From Panorpa germanica (Eukaryota; Arthropoda; Insecta; Mecoptera; Panorpidae), in contig OY783209.1 in the NCBI GenBank assembly GCA_963678705.1, positions 5,332,001-5,396,000 on the forward strand: a DNA stretch of 64,000 nt, read 5' to 3'. Below the pieces are notes generated by a model. It was not told where the DNA came from. It ran no database searches and was given only the letters and a program-made list of their open reading frames with translations. The position numbers were made by a program, and so were the translations under genes. Below are positions 10,501-46,371 of this stretch, piece by piece; the first letter of the stretch is position 1, and each line of letters opens with the position of its first letter.

Positions 10501-13500
10501 ATAAATAACTGAAACATTAAATTATTTTGTTAAAGGTATATTTCCATTTGAAACTGCGATTAAATTTAATAAATCCAAGTTAAATCGAATTAAATATCAC
10601 TTCAATATTTTTCCATATTTTACTTATTTTAAATTATTACATAGTATATATTATTTCTTATTATATACTTCTTTACCTCTGTAAATAAACGTATATAACA
10701 ATGGAGAAGCAGGTTCTGTTATACGTATGTATTACATAACAATTTCAAACAAAAAAATTCTTTATTGTTCATTTTCATAAAATATTTCTATAAAACTTAT
10801 TACTGAGCAATATTTCACTAATAAAAAGATAAATTTCTATCACATACACATATGTTCTACAGCTTAAACGCTTCCCCCTAGCTCCTCTCCCCACCCCCTT
10901 ACTCTGCTTGCCGTCTAGACGTTGTTATCTCGAAGTATTTTTTAAAATAACGTTGATTTGATATTTCAAGACGAATTTATTATTTTTATTCTTATTGCTT
11001 AAGTTAGAACTTGGACGACTAACGTGTTTTATTATTTATACCGCCCTGGAGAGACACACGAATTTGATAAGATGTAGTTTTAGAGCAATATGGTCAAACG
11101 ATTGGAGAAAAGAAATATTGATTTCAGAATGGTTCGTGAAAATACGAGCTATTACGTGGTAAATAGAAATGATGGAACAGGTGAACAGTTTTATTGGTTT
11201 AACGTAGAAAAGCGTTATGGATCATGCCCTACTACTGTTTTAGTTTTAATTTATATTTTAATCTTATATTTTTGCATGTTGCAAAACAGAGTATGTGTTT
11301 CTTGCAGTTTATTTAGATTTTAGGTTAAGTAATACACTTTACTTAATAATAATTATTACTTTTTATATAGTTATTTTTTTTTCTTTATCTCTCACTAGCC
11401 AAACATTCGTTTTATTTATCACAGATTGTTGAATATAGCCATGGTCATTAAGAAAATACTTTGTACTATCAGTTTTTAGGGGGTCAAATCTTGTAGTTTA
11501 CTTGTTACTTCTGCAAGTAACTAAACACAGTGACGTGTATTTAAAGTTTAACTAACATAACAAAATTAACTTGTTATGTAAACTGTTTTACCTAAAACAC
11601 AATCTGTTTATCTGTGCTACTACATTTTTTAAAATATGTGCAGCAGACGATTACGCAATAAAATATAATAAAACTAAAACTAAAATAGTAGATGAAAGTG
11701 ACACCTTATAATTTGCACCAATTTTTGTTTATAAAATTATTTTACGCCTGAAATATGGCAACCACTTGAACACTTCTCTCGAGGTTACACTTAATTAATA
11801 TTATATATATTCTTCAGACGAATGCATTTGACGAATAAATTCATGAGTCTTATTGTAAGTGTATATAAGGTTCATTTTATAATTTTCAGAAACGATTTTT
11901 CGAAGGCGATTTTAAATTATATATGACTCTTTTGTATACCTGTAATAAGACTAATAAGTTTCACTATCTGTCGTCAGAAAAATTAGACGAATATTCATTA
12001 TGCATTGTAAAGCTTATGGATCTTATAGAAATGTATTGAGTCATCTATGAAAAGTGAGGATTCTAAATTTGTTTAATCGAAATATCTTGAACTTTATTAA
12101 ATTTAAAAACTTACTCTAGACTTAAGTTTGGAAGATAAAGCTTGTCTCAGCATGTGAAGCAACTTATCGGTAATTCCAGGAGAGCTTAAAAAGTGCAGAG
12201 CTTTAAGTCGCGAGATATAACCTTTCTGTAAACAAAATAAATTCACAATAAACGCTAAAAGTTTTAAAGAAATTAAAAGCAAAATATTCAAATTTGTATT
12301 TACTTGTGCTGCAACTTCAATCTTTCTCACAGTTGCTGGATGTAGCTTGGTGACATGACCCAATTTAAATTGACTGCAATTGAAGATGACAATTTCTCCT
12401 AGGTTGTAATCCATCCGATATCTCATTTCTCCAATCATGAATACATATTTAAATAATGCGCACAAATCAAATTTATTTGGATCGCTATCGATTAAGGACA
12501 AGCAGACCACCCGATATCCTTCAGGGGTGTGTGGACGCATGGGGATGTAAATGCTGCAATTAGATAATATTCTAGTTTTTATCGGTTACATCATGCATCT
12601 CAGCTCATAAACCCAATGTGACCGAGATCGTAAGAAGTTCATCAAATTATAAAAAAGAAAAAGCATTTATCTGATTAAAGAATCTGTAAATCATAAATAT
12701 ATATAATATAAAAAAGCAGTTCTTATTTTAAAAGGAACATTTAAAATTTTAAACGAGTTATAATATTTTATGAAATTAAGTTTAAGGTCAAGGTCAACTT
12801 ACACAGTGTCCAATACTTGTTTTATTTCTGGTAGTAGCGGATCTCTATCTGTAAATATTTCAGGTATGGCTCCTTTGACGGTGTAATACATATCTATTAC
12901 TTGTTTGGACCGTTCGATACTTCCCTTTGCTCCAAGATACACAGTCCGAAAATGTCTTGAATCTAGAAAAATTAACATAAGATGACTGACTGTATCATAT
13001 ACAATGATATGTAATTTAATGATTTAAGGCGGAAGAATGTAGTGGCTAATAGCAAAAGCATTAAAATAAATATTAATAATAATAATAACATAAAATACAG
13101 ATAAATGAACAGATTACAGACTAGTATGCAGTTTTTTTTCACACGCAAAGGAGAAGGAAGGGACAAGGGGGATCAATTATTATGACGTCACATGCAGAAA
13201 TAAATGTATAATGTAAAATGTAATAAATAAATATTACAAAAAAAATGTATTAATTGAAATGTGTGATTTCACACCAAAGGTGTTCGTCAGATGTGACAAA
13301 TGGGGGGAGGGGGGTCCTGAATAGCGGGATATTTGTCAGACAAGTTTATTTACCAGCTTTTCCGTCAATTTGCCGCGTTAAGAGATATAAAGACACATTT
13401 CTGGATAGTTATGTCTGTACTATGAATAATAATCTGTGTATTAACAGTGTATTGCGCTATGCATTTGAAATGCACTAGATTGAATGGGATTGTGTCCTAT

Positions 13501-31145: not shown

Positions 31146-31280
<135 letters not shown>

Positions 31281-42269: not shown

Positions 42270-44754
42270 TACGGAGTATACTTTTATGGTATAAGTATAA
42301 TTTATAATATAAAATGTAAACAAGGAACCAAGAAGTAACCAAACCAAGGAGTACAAAGTTGTCAAGAGAATAAGAAATTGTCTAAACATGGTACGAATAT
42401 CCATTATGTGAAATCCAAAATGAAATTGAAATGCAAATAAATAACAGTTAGTCATTTAGAGCAACGTGTTCCTCTCTCATTTGCCATTTGCTGCCCCCCC
42501 TACCCCCCATTCCTAAAGCGAGTTCACTCTGCACATAACATATATATTATATATATTATAATTTATACATAAAGTATTACACGGTAACAACCGTTACATT
42601 TTTGCTCATAAACAATTCAACAATTTGCAACAAATAAAATGAATTGTATATTTACACTTGTTTCGTAACCGAAAAAGAAGTTACATATTCGTGAATTTTT
42701 TCTGTGGAAACGTGTGAATGTTTTTTAATACTTCTTTTTTTATAATAAAGAGTATAGCTTCAGGTATCTTTTCCAATTTTCTTAATAAAAAATATAATCA
42801 TATGTAATAGATACAAATGTTTGAACAGACCGCTGTATAAAAATCAACGCTGTTTAAAATTCTTTGTGGTGACCAATGTTTCTCGAAAGCAAATTGATAG
42901 GAAATTAAATCATTTAGCTTTTGATGACATTATCTAGTGGTTAAACAAATGGTAGATTTTGAAAAAATTAGCGTAATATAAACTGAAGTTTTAGATTTTT
43001 GTTGAAAAACTAACAATCTTTAATTTACTTGATAAAAAAACGATGTGTTTAAAGGTTTAAGTCTGGACTATATATAATAGATCGACCTGTAATTTACAAA
43101 GAATATTTTTGAGAAGCTGTTGAAACCCTAAAATCTATATTCGCAAAATTACTTGTGTAACTACGTAATACTAAATAGGTAGAGATATCTCTCTTTAATT
43201 AATGTGTTCATATAATATTGAATTTATCTTTGCACAACAAATAAAATTATAAATTAAATTGTTTTAAGACAGTCGTCTTTATCTCCAGTGTACAGCTACT
43301 CTAAAACTAAATCTGCTAAATATAAACCATTGATAGTACCTTATATTCATGTAATATTTTACTTGAGCAAAACACAGTAATATTCCATCAAGACTGGTCT
43401 TAAATTTGCACAAAATTAATTAATAAAAATACTATATAACTTTTAATACATAAAAAGACTTCTTTAGAAATTATAATAATTAAAGAAGATCTTCTTAAAA
43501 AGTTCTATTTTAAGAATAGTGGTAAAATTGGTCACAAAATGTAGTATATTAAGTAACACAGTTTGAATTACTTTTAATATTATTAAAGTTTTGGTTACTC
43601 TTGTTATGTTAGATAAATATATAGATAATTTAACTGGTATCATTTTATTACTGTAATGGTGTGATACCTCGGCATGTATAATCTAGTTTTATTTATTCTA
43701 AATTCGTGGGCTGTTCCGTGAATACAACCCCTGCCCAATACTATTACATTTACTTGTTCTTTCCTCTATTTATCTTTGAGTAATTAGAATTATTTGTAAA
43801 ACAGACTTAACCCACCACCACCCTACACCACTCCACACCTCCCACAAAATATAACAAAGTGAAAATAAAACCGAGTAAAAACATTCATAGATGGCACTGG
43901 CAGCACATGACAATGACGTATTCTGATGTATTATTCAATACAAGACGAAAAATGTTTAAAAATTATTAAGGGATAATGTTAGGCTTAGGGTGTAATGGTA
44001 ACAGTAATGTATTACGTATACTGAGGGTAAACTGATACCACAACACACCACACTCCTCCTCCTTAATACCCTACACCTTTCACTACCCTTAAAAATGAGT
44101 TTTTGTTGAAAATATGTAAATGTAAAGTCACGTGCGCGTCATAAATTTACCTCTAAAAATATTTTAGTAGAAATTTATTTTATTAATTTTATTCTTATAT
44201 TAAGAACTTTCATTTTTAACATTTTATCCAATGAATTTGATCGAAGCGAGTAGATTGTGTTGATATATATCAGGCGTTATAAAAACCTCAGTAACTTTGT
44301 ATATATATCAAAATAAAAAAATATATTTTATTTTAAGTTTGTTTGTAATATAACGATTTATTTTATTTCAGTTGTTTATTGCTTTAAAAAATTCTTTATT
44401 TTCTTTTAACGCCTGTGAATTATAAAATACAACTACAGTTACATAATTTCTACAATGTAATACAAAAAAGTGTTCGTATTAAATTCTATTATTTTACCAA
44501 ATGTAAATGGAACGCAGACTCTAGTAGATTTAGTTTTATACATAACCTATAAAACAGATTTATTTTTATCGAATTTAAATTTTAATACTTGTGCAATGTG
44601 TTAAATAGAAGCGCGAAATTTAGTATCGTATTGATTACTTCGGTGTTTAACTATACCTGGCGCTCACTTTGATGGTGTTACTCACACAGTAGGGCATATA
44701 TGCTGTACTGTAGTACCGCTACTCTACACTAGATGGCGGCGAAATACAAAGCAA
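42270..44754. other. AT-rich DNA, no recognised gene
   Basis: Contains a poly-C patch (42491-42516) and a palindromic TATATATTATATATATTATA stretch (42541-42560). Otherwise no structure was seen. Confidence 0.4.
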
Positions 44755-45019
44755 TGTGGCGGCCCAGCGCCATCCGTCACGCCTCTACAGGCGAATAGAC
44801 GACATAACTAAGAACTGTATAATCGTTCATTCCTACAGCGACTAGCGACCAGCACGGACTTCTACACATTACAACGACACGTTTCAAACTTACAACTATA
44901 AGTTTTGTATCGCACTTGTTATAATCATTCATTTCATTAAATATATAATATAAACTTTACATTCTGTTAAAAACGCACTTGATTTGTTTTAATAAATATA
45001 GTAGTCTAAGATAACTACA
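44755..45019 (+). repeat. 5' LTR, 265 bp
   Basis: Starts TGTGGCGGCCCAGCGCCATC and ends AAGATAACTACA. The first 60 bp are less AT-rich than the rest, which ends AT-rich with an AATAAA-like TTTAATAAATATAG near the 3' end, a plausible polyadenylation region. Confidence 0.95.
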
Positions 45020-45020
45020 T

Positions 45021-45038
45021 TGGTGACCCCGACGTGAT
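45021..45038 (+). promoter_or_regulatory. Primer binding site for tRNA-Trp
   Basis: TGGTGACCCCGACGTGAT starts one base after the LTR. It is the reverse complement of the conserved eukaryotic tRNA-Trp 3' end (ATCACGTCGGGGTCA plus CCA), 18 of 18 positions from my memory of that tRNA. Confidence 0.85.
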
Positions 45039-45345
45039 CAAGTGTAAACGCACGTTACAAAGTGTTAATCCACGTGCTAAAGTTTTAAACCGACGTGATC
45101 AAGTGTAAACGCACGTTACAAAGTGTTAATCCACGTGCTAAAGTTTTAAACCGACGTGATCAAGTGTAAACGCACGTTACAAAGTGTTAATCCACGTGCT
45201 AAAGTTTTAAACCTCGTGATACAGTGATAAAGTTTAAACCCACGTTACAAAGTGTTAATCCACGTGCTAAAGTTTTAAACCTCGAGATACAGTGATAAAG
45301 TTCAAACCCACGTCACAAAGTTTTTCAACAAAGTGTTAAAACACG
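45031..45345 (+). repeat. Tandem ~61-66-bp leader repeats containing part of the primer site
   Basis: Three near-identical units of about 61 bp start GACGTGATCAAGTGTAAACG and end TGCTAAAGTTTTAAACC. Two more diverged units follow (starting TCGTGATACAGTGATAAAG and TCGAGATACAGTGATAAAG). Units two and three begin with CCGACGTGATC, which repeats the inner 10-11 bases of the primer site. The array lies in the leader, where a packaging signal would be expected. Confidence 0.9.
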
Positions 45346-45409
45346 TGACTAACTTTCTAAAACACGTTTTTAAAATTTAATAATTTACATTCACCCACGC
45401 TACAACAAA

Positions 45410-45541
45410 ATGCAGCACGTGGTAGAATCAAACGTACCCTCTCGGCAAGAGCACAGCAGTCTACCAGACTATGACGGTGTTCTCAAAAACGACAACCAGT
45501 CGCAGACATACCTTCTGCCTTCTACCTTCTCTAGGTACTGA
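45410..45541 (+). CDS. Short leader-proximal ORF of the LTR element (43 aa)
   Basis: The first ATG after the leader (context ACAAAATGC) opens a 43-codon frame: MQHVVESNVPSRQEHSSLPD, then a segment ending in LPSTFSRY. It is in a different frame from the Pro/Thr-rich ORF that starts inside it at 45471. It may be the stub of a former gag start. No domain is recognised and its function is unknown. Confidence 0.45.
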   Translation: MQHVVESNVPSRQEHSSLPDYDGVLKNDNQSQTYLLPSTFSRY

Positions 45542-45962
45542 AGTCTTCAGAATTTCCCCCACGTTATCAGAAACACCGCCGACAGTTACAACATCACCAA
45601 CCGATAAACCAACAGATAAACCAACAGATAAACCAACAGATAAACCAACGGATGAACCAACGGACAAACCAACGGATAAACCAACGGATAAACCAACGGA
45701 TAAACCAACGGATAAACCAACAGAAAAACCAACAACACCAACAACATCTAAAAAACCAACTGATAAAACAACAACAGAAGCACCAGCTACTCCAGCACCA
45801 GCTACTCCAGCACCAGCTACTCCAGCACCAGCTACTCCAGCACCAGCTACTCCAGCACCAGCTACACCAGCACCAGCTACACCAGCACCAGCTACACCAG
45901 CACCAGCTGCACCAGCACCAGCTACACCAGCACCAGAGAGACTCAAAACCATGCTACACTAG
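45471..45962 (+). CDS. Pro/Thr/Ala repeat protein encoded by the LTR element
   Basis: 163 codons. After about 40 unremarkable residues comes a run of PTDK tetrapeptides (about ten copies from DNA units of 12 bp, 45598-45740), a spacer ([18 protein letters not shown]), then a run of PATPA pentapeptides (15-bp units, 45780-45935) and the end ERLKTMLH. The composition resembles mucin-type or extensin-like linkers; there is no signal peptide, gag zinc knuckle or coiled coil. Because unit lengths are multiples of three, other frames and the opposite strand are also open, so frame choice is uncertain. It could be captured host sequence or simple repeat expansion. Confidence 0.5.
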
Positions 45963-46089
45963 CAAAACAGATGCAGATCACCAGGATGACTCGACATCGC
46001 AGCCAACGCAGCCACATCAATGGACCTCAAACCTTGACAAACCCTTACGAACGTAAAGTGACTTTCAAAACTCACCTTGAAAGCCACTT

Positions 46090-46102
46090 AGGGGGGAGTG
46101 GA
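46090..46102 (+). promoter_or_regulatory. Polypurine tract of the LTR element
   Basis: AGGGGGGAGTGGA directly precedes the right LTR (TGTGGCGG), the expected position for plus-strand priming. Confidence 0.85.
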
Positions 46103-46367
46103 TGTGGCGGCCCAGCGCCATCCGTCACGCCTCTACAGGCGAATAGACGACATAACTAAGAACTGTATAATCGTTCATTCCTACAGCGACTAGCGACCAG
46201 CACGGACTTCTACACATTACAACGACACGTTTCAAACTTACAACTATAAGTTTTGTATCGCACTTGTTATAATCATTCATTTCATTAAATATATAATATA
46301 AACTTTACATTCTGTTAAAAACGCACTTGATTTGTTTTAATAAATATAGTAGTCTAAGATAACTACA
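46103..46367 (+). repeat. 3' LTR, 265 bp
   Basis: Same sequence as the left LTR as far as I can read. It is followed by the GCAA target duplication. Confidence 0.95.
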
Positions 46368-46371
46368 GCAA

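Follow-up and report, generated by a model that had tools for sequence, protein, structure and literature searches.

The CsRn1-like elements of the Ty3/gypsy group carry a Gag protein marked by the motif CX2HX9CX3C, together with a primer binding site for tRNA-Trp and 4-bp target site duplications. In nine AgCR elements, the gag and pol frames overlap with a −1 shift, which is one of the layouts of the CsRn1 clade, according to the portions of the source that deal with these characters (PMC2582038). PbTRIM of the harvester ant is small and devoid of pol; it has a primer binding site, a polypurine tract and 4-bp duplications, and its movement in trans has been proposed. In the portions of its description considered here, no partner is identified, the interior is described as non-coding, and tRNA-Leu is given as the match of the primer site (PMC3532108). 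Non-autonomous LTR elements of animals often have neither a known partner nor a known birth event, PbTRIM being an example. Host sequences are also found in LTR elements. Bs1 of maize is an LTR element with transduced pieces of host genes, as summarized in a section of a review (PMC13317346), and gene fragments are mentioned in plant TRIMs (PMC4717578). In metazoans, LTR-mediated retroposition by template switching between the RNA of an LTR element and a cellular mRNA has been described as a route of host mRNA capture (Tan et al. 2016, as reported in passages of PMC5408686 and PMC8232201).

The complete LTR element presented here occupies 1613 bp (positions 44755-46367) of the window, that is, the whole 64-kb stretch of Panorpa germanica DNA that was analyzed. 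It is highly probable that this non-autonomous element was born by the loss of gag-pol and the capture of an exon fragment of the host gene CD164, likely via template switching, and that its long open frame is a likely passenger. Since a pol-bearing partner, the donor gene, a related mini family, and chimeras are present in one genome, both the birth of the element and its movement in trans become testable.

Results

Structure of the element

The element is bordered on the left (44751-44754) and on the right (46368-46371) by the target site duplication GCAA, which has no strand; all features below are on the + strand. The 5′ LTR (44755-45019) is 265 bp long, runs from TGT to ACA, and contains a TATA-like stretch around 44940-44955, recognized by eye, and an AATAAA at 44991. 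The 3′ LTR (46103-46367), also of 265 bp, is identical to it. The primer binding site TGGTGACCCCGACGTGAT (45020-45037), immediately 3′ of the 5′ LTR, is presumably that of tRNA-Trp, which it fits and which CsRn1-like elements use (PMC2582038). Positions 46090-46102 are occupied by the polypurine tract AGGGGGGAGTGGA. The features by which LTR retrotransposons are recognized (paired LTRs, target duplication, primer site, and polypurine tract) are all present, and each had been announced by the original prediction, which was right in describing the element as compact, very young, and devoid of pol.

The leader contains a minisatellite (45029-45281, tandem-repeat scan) that the original prediction does not mention, with a 61-nt unit that starts with primer-site sequence. 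Its motif is counted 0 to 7 times per copy, and it may originate during primer-site copying. It is followed by a 43-codon frame (45410-45541) and, in the +1 frame relative to gag, by a 163-codon frame of PTDK and PATPA repeats (45471-45962); both frames exist as previously claimed. The second frame crosses a captured fragment of the mucin exon of the host MGC-24/CD164 gene (45525-45781) with an internal PTDK array (45596-45733), and a 15-nt PATPA minisatellite (45779-45936), both arrays being delimited by the tandem-repeat scan. The interior then ends with sequence that corresponds to the last part of the partner's pol and to what follows it (45936-46101), frameshifted near the junction. The 12-nt and 15-nt units of the interior arrays have TRF scores of 220 and 274, respectively. 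As both unit lengths are multiples of three, the array region is open in other frames and on the opposite strand as well, and an open frame by itself says little about coding.

Neither an Rfam match at gathering scores nor a tRNA was found in the window. Elsewhere, the segment 4751-9922 (− strand) contains two long frames, open from stop to stop, of 1251 and 442 codons. The former encodes endonuclease, reverse transcriptase (RT), and RNase H domains; the latter shows zinc-knuckle-like cysteines by eye and has no Pfam match. The segment is an apparently intact non-LTR element. An exon with a CRAL/TRIO domain (Pfam E=4.5e-08) is found at 12103-12585 (− strand), and 64 perfect AT units at 31150-31277.

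Copies and age

The genome (464 Mb in 249 contigs) yielded at least 40 matches to the LTR, the best 40 of 155 candidates being scored, and at least 42 matches to the insert half, with the best 40 of 89 candidates scored; the copy numbers are lower bounds. Insert matches at C16:10105987, C9:4651673, C65, C2:3796139, C2:3615955, and C1:11946888, and some weaker ones, were left unread. The family of the window element, termed family A, was compared over 27 copies (L023, L029-L053, and L056), so that the element has relatives and is not a single-copy insertion. The counts of frames, LTR pairs, and duplications refer to these 27 copies; the six loci of a second family, family B, were kept separate.

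Copies L047-L049 were counted once, since all three have identical 30-nt flanks on both sides, which gives 25 independent insertions. These copies (C2:3857976, 3408482, and 3402766) share their immediate flanks and have no target duplication, as expected from a single insertion in a duplicated segment. Between L048 and L049, there is one difference in 1200 flanking nt and none in the element. L052, with one partial LTR, was excluded from the pair and duplication counts, leaving 24 insertions with both ends. The two LTRs are identical in 21 of the 24; the unequal pairs are those of L032 (95.6%), L041 (97.4%), and L043 (99.6%). Perfect 4-bp duplications are likewise found in 21 of the 24, the exceptions being L041, L043, and L047. 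L033 and L042 have inserts within their LTRs, and both pairs are identical.

The mutation rate of the fly, 2.8e-9 per generation, was used for dating. If this rate applies, zero differences in one 265-bp LTR pair correspond to an age of less than about 2 million generations, and zero differences in twenty pairs to a mean age of less than about 0.1 million generations.

A pol-bearing partner

Four elements of 4.9-5.0 kb (L024-L027) have LTRs that are 98.1-98.5% like those of the window element. The LTR pairs are identical and 4-bp target duplications are present in 4 of 4. The search for an autonomous partner sharing the LTR and the primer region, proposed along with the original prediction, was thus successful. 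The sequence in common with the window element comprises its left end (element positions 1-764) and its right end (1182-1613). An open gag of 330 codons and a pol of 1078 codons, in −1 overlap, were found in L024, L025, and L026 (3/3 listed). L027, at a different site, matches L026 without a single difference over all 4389 nt from the gag start onward. Pieces of the L025 pol contain RT, RNase H, and integrase domains (Pfam), with a GPY near the integrase end of the partner and the sequence LQATPAE within the integrase. The L025 gag (812-1801) matches DUF7041 in Pfam and ends with CX2HX9CX3C (CHCC motif, read by eye). The occurrence of DUF7041 on a Gag of the CsRn1 type indicates that this is probably a retrotransposon Gag domain. 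By its Gag motif, 4-bp duplications, and −1 overlap, the partner is classified as a CsRn1-type Ty3/gypsy element. Its primer site is presumably also that of tRNA-Trp.

Compared to the partner, the window element has kept the LTR, the leader, and about 36 gag codons (to 45518), and similarity resumes at 45936, near the pol end. As its first ~36 codons match the N terminus of the partner gag, the 43-codon frame is a gag stump. The 3′ internal end of the partners is only 90.8% like that of the window element, gaps counted, so that a closer partner may exist among the unscored candidates. From these comparisons, the window element is considered a recently active non-autonomous derivative of a CsRn1-type Ty3/gypsy retrotransposon, which a full-length partner probably moves in trans.

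Origin of the PTDK part

A single exon at C7:16506494-16506802 (L060) aligns with the fragment 45525-45781, and the shared frame is that of the exon. The likeness begins 5 nt (at the protein level) to 12 nt (at the DNA level) inside the exon, past the apparent splice acceptor. The donor exon matches Pfam PF05283 (profile positions 52-140 of 140) and continues into the membrane and tail part of MGC-24 (CD164/endolyn sialomucin) with E=1.9e-17. It is the single MGC-24 match found in the genome search, and no upstream CD164 exon was recognized in the 1.2 kb examined. The captured fragment lacks the membrane span and the tail of CD164, and up to E=0.01, neither this part of PF05283 nor any other Pfam family is matched by the window frame of the element. 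A search of solved structures with the donor exon returned a PT-repeat match (OCM3, 1.9e-13) and a weak one, neither of which was informative.

Low-complexity arrays expand readily and mucin-like repeats are common, so that repeats expanding within the element could have converged on a mucin-like sequence without any capture. The non-repeat sequences on both sides of the array argue against this, since both align with this one exon, collinearly and in its frame. With the donor exon, these two parts score 71 and 92, far above the maxima of 30 and 51 reached by codon shuffles (500 each), whereas with the two partners that were tried, L025 and L026, they score only 21 and 32. Convergence is therefore regarded as extremely improbable. 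The reverse transfer, in which the host CD164 gene would have gained the PTDK stretch from the element, would also leave the same sequence in both, and LTR elements can be exonised. However, over 2.6 kb around the donor exon, the only similarity to the element is that of the mucin part, LTR and gag sequences being absent, the exon runs on into the conserved membrane and tail part, and the homology starts 5-12 nt inside the exon. The probability of this direction appears very slight. Judged from the in-frame match that exceeds the shuffles, the PTDK part is derived from one exon of the host MGC-24 gene. Captured host sequence, one of the options previously offered for the repeat frame, is thus the right one for this part.

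Over 41 alignable codons, 8 silent and 2 replacement changes separate the insert from the donor, a count that excludes the more changed stretch between PSLGTEV and SETPPT. Such differences may mean that the sequence was taken from an old allele, or from the gene of another species.

The PATPA array and a second mini family

The PATPA array is absent from the donor exon. Family B, the second mini family, was read at six loci (L054, L055, L057, L062, L063, and L064). Its LTRs have diverged, the matched parts being 70-85% like those of the window element, and its interior combines the mucin repeats of family A with PATPA and a fragment of integrase. There, PATPA runs on from an integrase stretch that ends with ATPA or a close variant. 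This continuity, together with the LQATPAE of the partner, makes the integrase the likely seed of the array, and the PATPA part may accordingly stem from the integrase ATPA motif. It is also possible that the array was joined later to the integrase at a short similarity. As to the order of events, the integrase seed may have been lost later in family A, or the integrase piece gained later in family B.

Status of the repeat frame

Read from the position of the window ATG, 23 of the 27 family A copies keep the frame open across the repeats, despite varying numbers of units; it is broken in L046 and in the L047-L049 group (4/27), and not as often as it is intact. Selection for a functional protein of the element, such as a gag substitute or a packaging aid, could also account for this openness, and the sub-lineage of the window element does have an AUG. 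This start codon is found in 5 of the 25 insertions (the window element, L030, L031, L034, and L036), whereas the other 20 have GTG and no in-frame AUG before the repeats. Identical LTR pairs in 16 of these 20 indicate recent movement without the AUG. L046, although frameshifted, also has identical LTRs and a perfect duplication.

The frame was examined for purifying selection in the captured non-repeat parts, using 30 rows (the 27 family A copies plus L058, L059, and L061), of which 28 and 29 were scored for the two parts. There is no silent excess: the test, which rests on 20 variants only, gave 5 silent and 15 replacement variants, with about 28% silent expected from all possible single changes, so that replacements are as frequent as expected without selection. 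The variants fall on the three codon positions in numbers of 6, 8, and 6. In the gag stump, which is not known to be needed either, 6 of 19 variants are silent. In family B, three of the six loci (L057, L062, and L063) have an open frame of 155-203 codons across the repeats that is not the one read in family A.

The number of motifs over the 27 copies varies from 7 to 15 for PTDK and from 3 to 10 for PATPA, and the option of a repeat expansion fits this variation. With young copies and units of triplet length, an open frame is expected without selection. The scarcity of the AUG, the lack of a silent excess, and the other frame used in family B point to a passenger instead of a gag substitute. 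A function of the frame as a selected protein, for which no Pfam match of the window frame speaks either (E up to 0.01), is thus very unlikely; the gag-substitute option that had been raised receives no support, and the repeat frame is most likely a captured passenger.

Chimeras and LTR groups

In L059, the LTR, the gag start, and the mucin insert lead straight into the RNase H-integrase region; in L061, they lead straight into RT, with a joint that differs from that of L059 (both by eye). Such joints are the product expected of template switching between two packaged RNAs, and they support copying of the mini element together with the RNA of the partner. The chimeras of insert and pol suggest template switching with the partner.

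A tree of the LTRs (FastTree, support values not shown) contains two groups, with mini elements in both. One group contains all the partners, and the other contains both chimeras. Of the five copies with the AUG, L031 stands apart from the other four. The swapping of LTRs between the groups was addressed by comparing the divergence of the LTR to that of the 3′ end at ten loci. The signal is weak: an excess of LTR change at p<0.05, uncorrected, was obtained at four of the ten (L043, 0.017; L047, 0.0027; L058, 0.0081; L055, 0.035), and no such excess over the 3′-end divergence at the other six.

Discussion

The proposed ancestor is a CsRn1-type Ty3/gypsy element. About 3.8 kb of its gag-pol would have disappeared, and part of the exon for the mucin domain of the host protein MGC-24 (CD164/endolyn) would have been acquired, most likely through a template switch of the reverse transcriptase. 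The mucin fragment would be joined to the pol end through the PATPA minisatellite. The LTR is expected to drive an RNA that keeps the primer site, the leader, and the purine tract, and this mini RNA would be packaged, copied, and inserted in trans by the Gag and Pol of the partner. The open PTDK/PATPA frame would come from the donor exon and be maintained by the triplet length of the units, the array lengths being presumably altered by slippage.

The capture was presumably RNA-mediated, although no spliced junction is visible, as the fragment lies inside one exon. A copy of the element in or next to CD164 could instead have recombined at the DNA level, without an RNA step, and the confinement of the fragment to a single exon, where an RNA origin would not be visible, agrees with this. 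Set against it, L059 and L061 show that unlike templates do join in this family, though they may have other origins, and template switching with mRNA is a described route in animals, by the account given in PMC5408686. Recombination at the DNA level is considered unlikely, and template switching is preferred as the mode of capture.

Beyond its origin, the captured fragment may not be inert. Between the insert and the CD164 exon, there are runs of perfect match of 21, 25, and 29 nt, which is piRNA length, and copies of the insert are found on both contig strands; the element family could be a source of small RNAs directed at CD164, or such RNAs could keep the family under control. The element may also have arrived horizontally after a capture in another species, which the mostly silent differences from the donor would fit. 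These sequence-based conjectures are put forward as decidedly improbable ones.

For annotation, the element is a warning: when a transposon has a long, repetitive open frame, this may be part of a mucin exon whose triplet-length repeats keep it free of stops.

Among the matches listed in the literature on TRIMs, the CsRn1 clade, gene capture, and CD164, most of them judged from their listing alone, no report of the capture of CD164 was found. Pieces of host genes in LTR elements are already known, as is a TRIM family from an insect, and the capture of a CD164 mucin sequence is apparently a new variant.

The partner has in common with the members of the CsRn1 clade (CsRn1, PwRn1, Anopheles AgCR, and Kabuki) the CX2HX9CX3C motif, the 4-bp duplications, the −1 overlap, and the GPY near the integrase end, as far as these are described in the relevant portions of PMC2582038. 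The window element differs from the clade in that it has lost nearly all of gag and pol and carries a piece of host exon. It resembles PbTRIM, as the latter is characterized in the passages referred to above, in its small size, lack of pol, primer binding site, polypurine tract, and 4-bp duplications, movement in trans having been proposed for PbTRIM and being probable for the window element. Unlike PbTRIM in those passages, it has a pol-bearing partner related in sequence, gag and pol remnants, and a host fragment.

The TRIM label initially given to the element fits loosely: the primer binding site and the polypurine tract agree with it, the gag and pol remnants, the captured exon piece, and the length of 1.6 kb, above the size limit of classical TRIMs, less so. 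The interior, non-coding in TRIMs, here comprises these remnants and a fragment of host exon whose frame is open, but nothing indicates that a protein is produced or maintained. Like Bs1, as portrayed in the review section, the window element is an LTR element carrying a piece of a host gene; unlike Bs1, it has an animal-type host, one donor gene that was found, mucin repeats, and minisatellite-like variation. Compared to CD164/endolyn itself, the frame of the element has the mucin-domain stretch in the same frame, without the membrane span or the tail, and is not a CD164 protein. Finally, unlike the products of metazoan LTR-mediated retroposition in the accounts cited, the chimera found here became a replicating, multi-copy, non-autonomous family.
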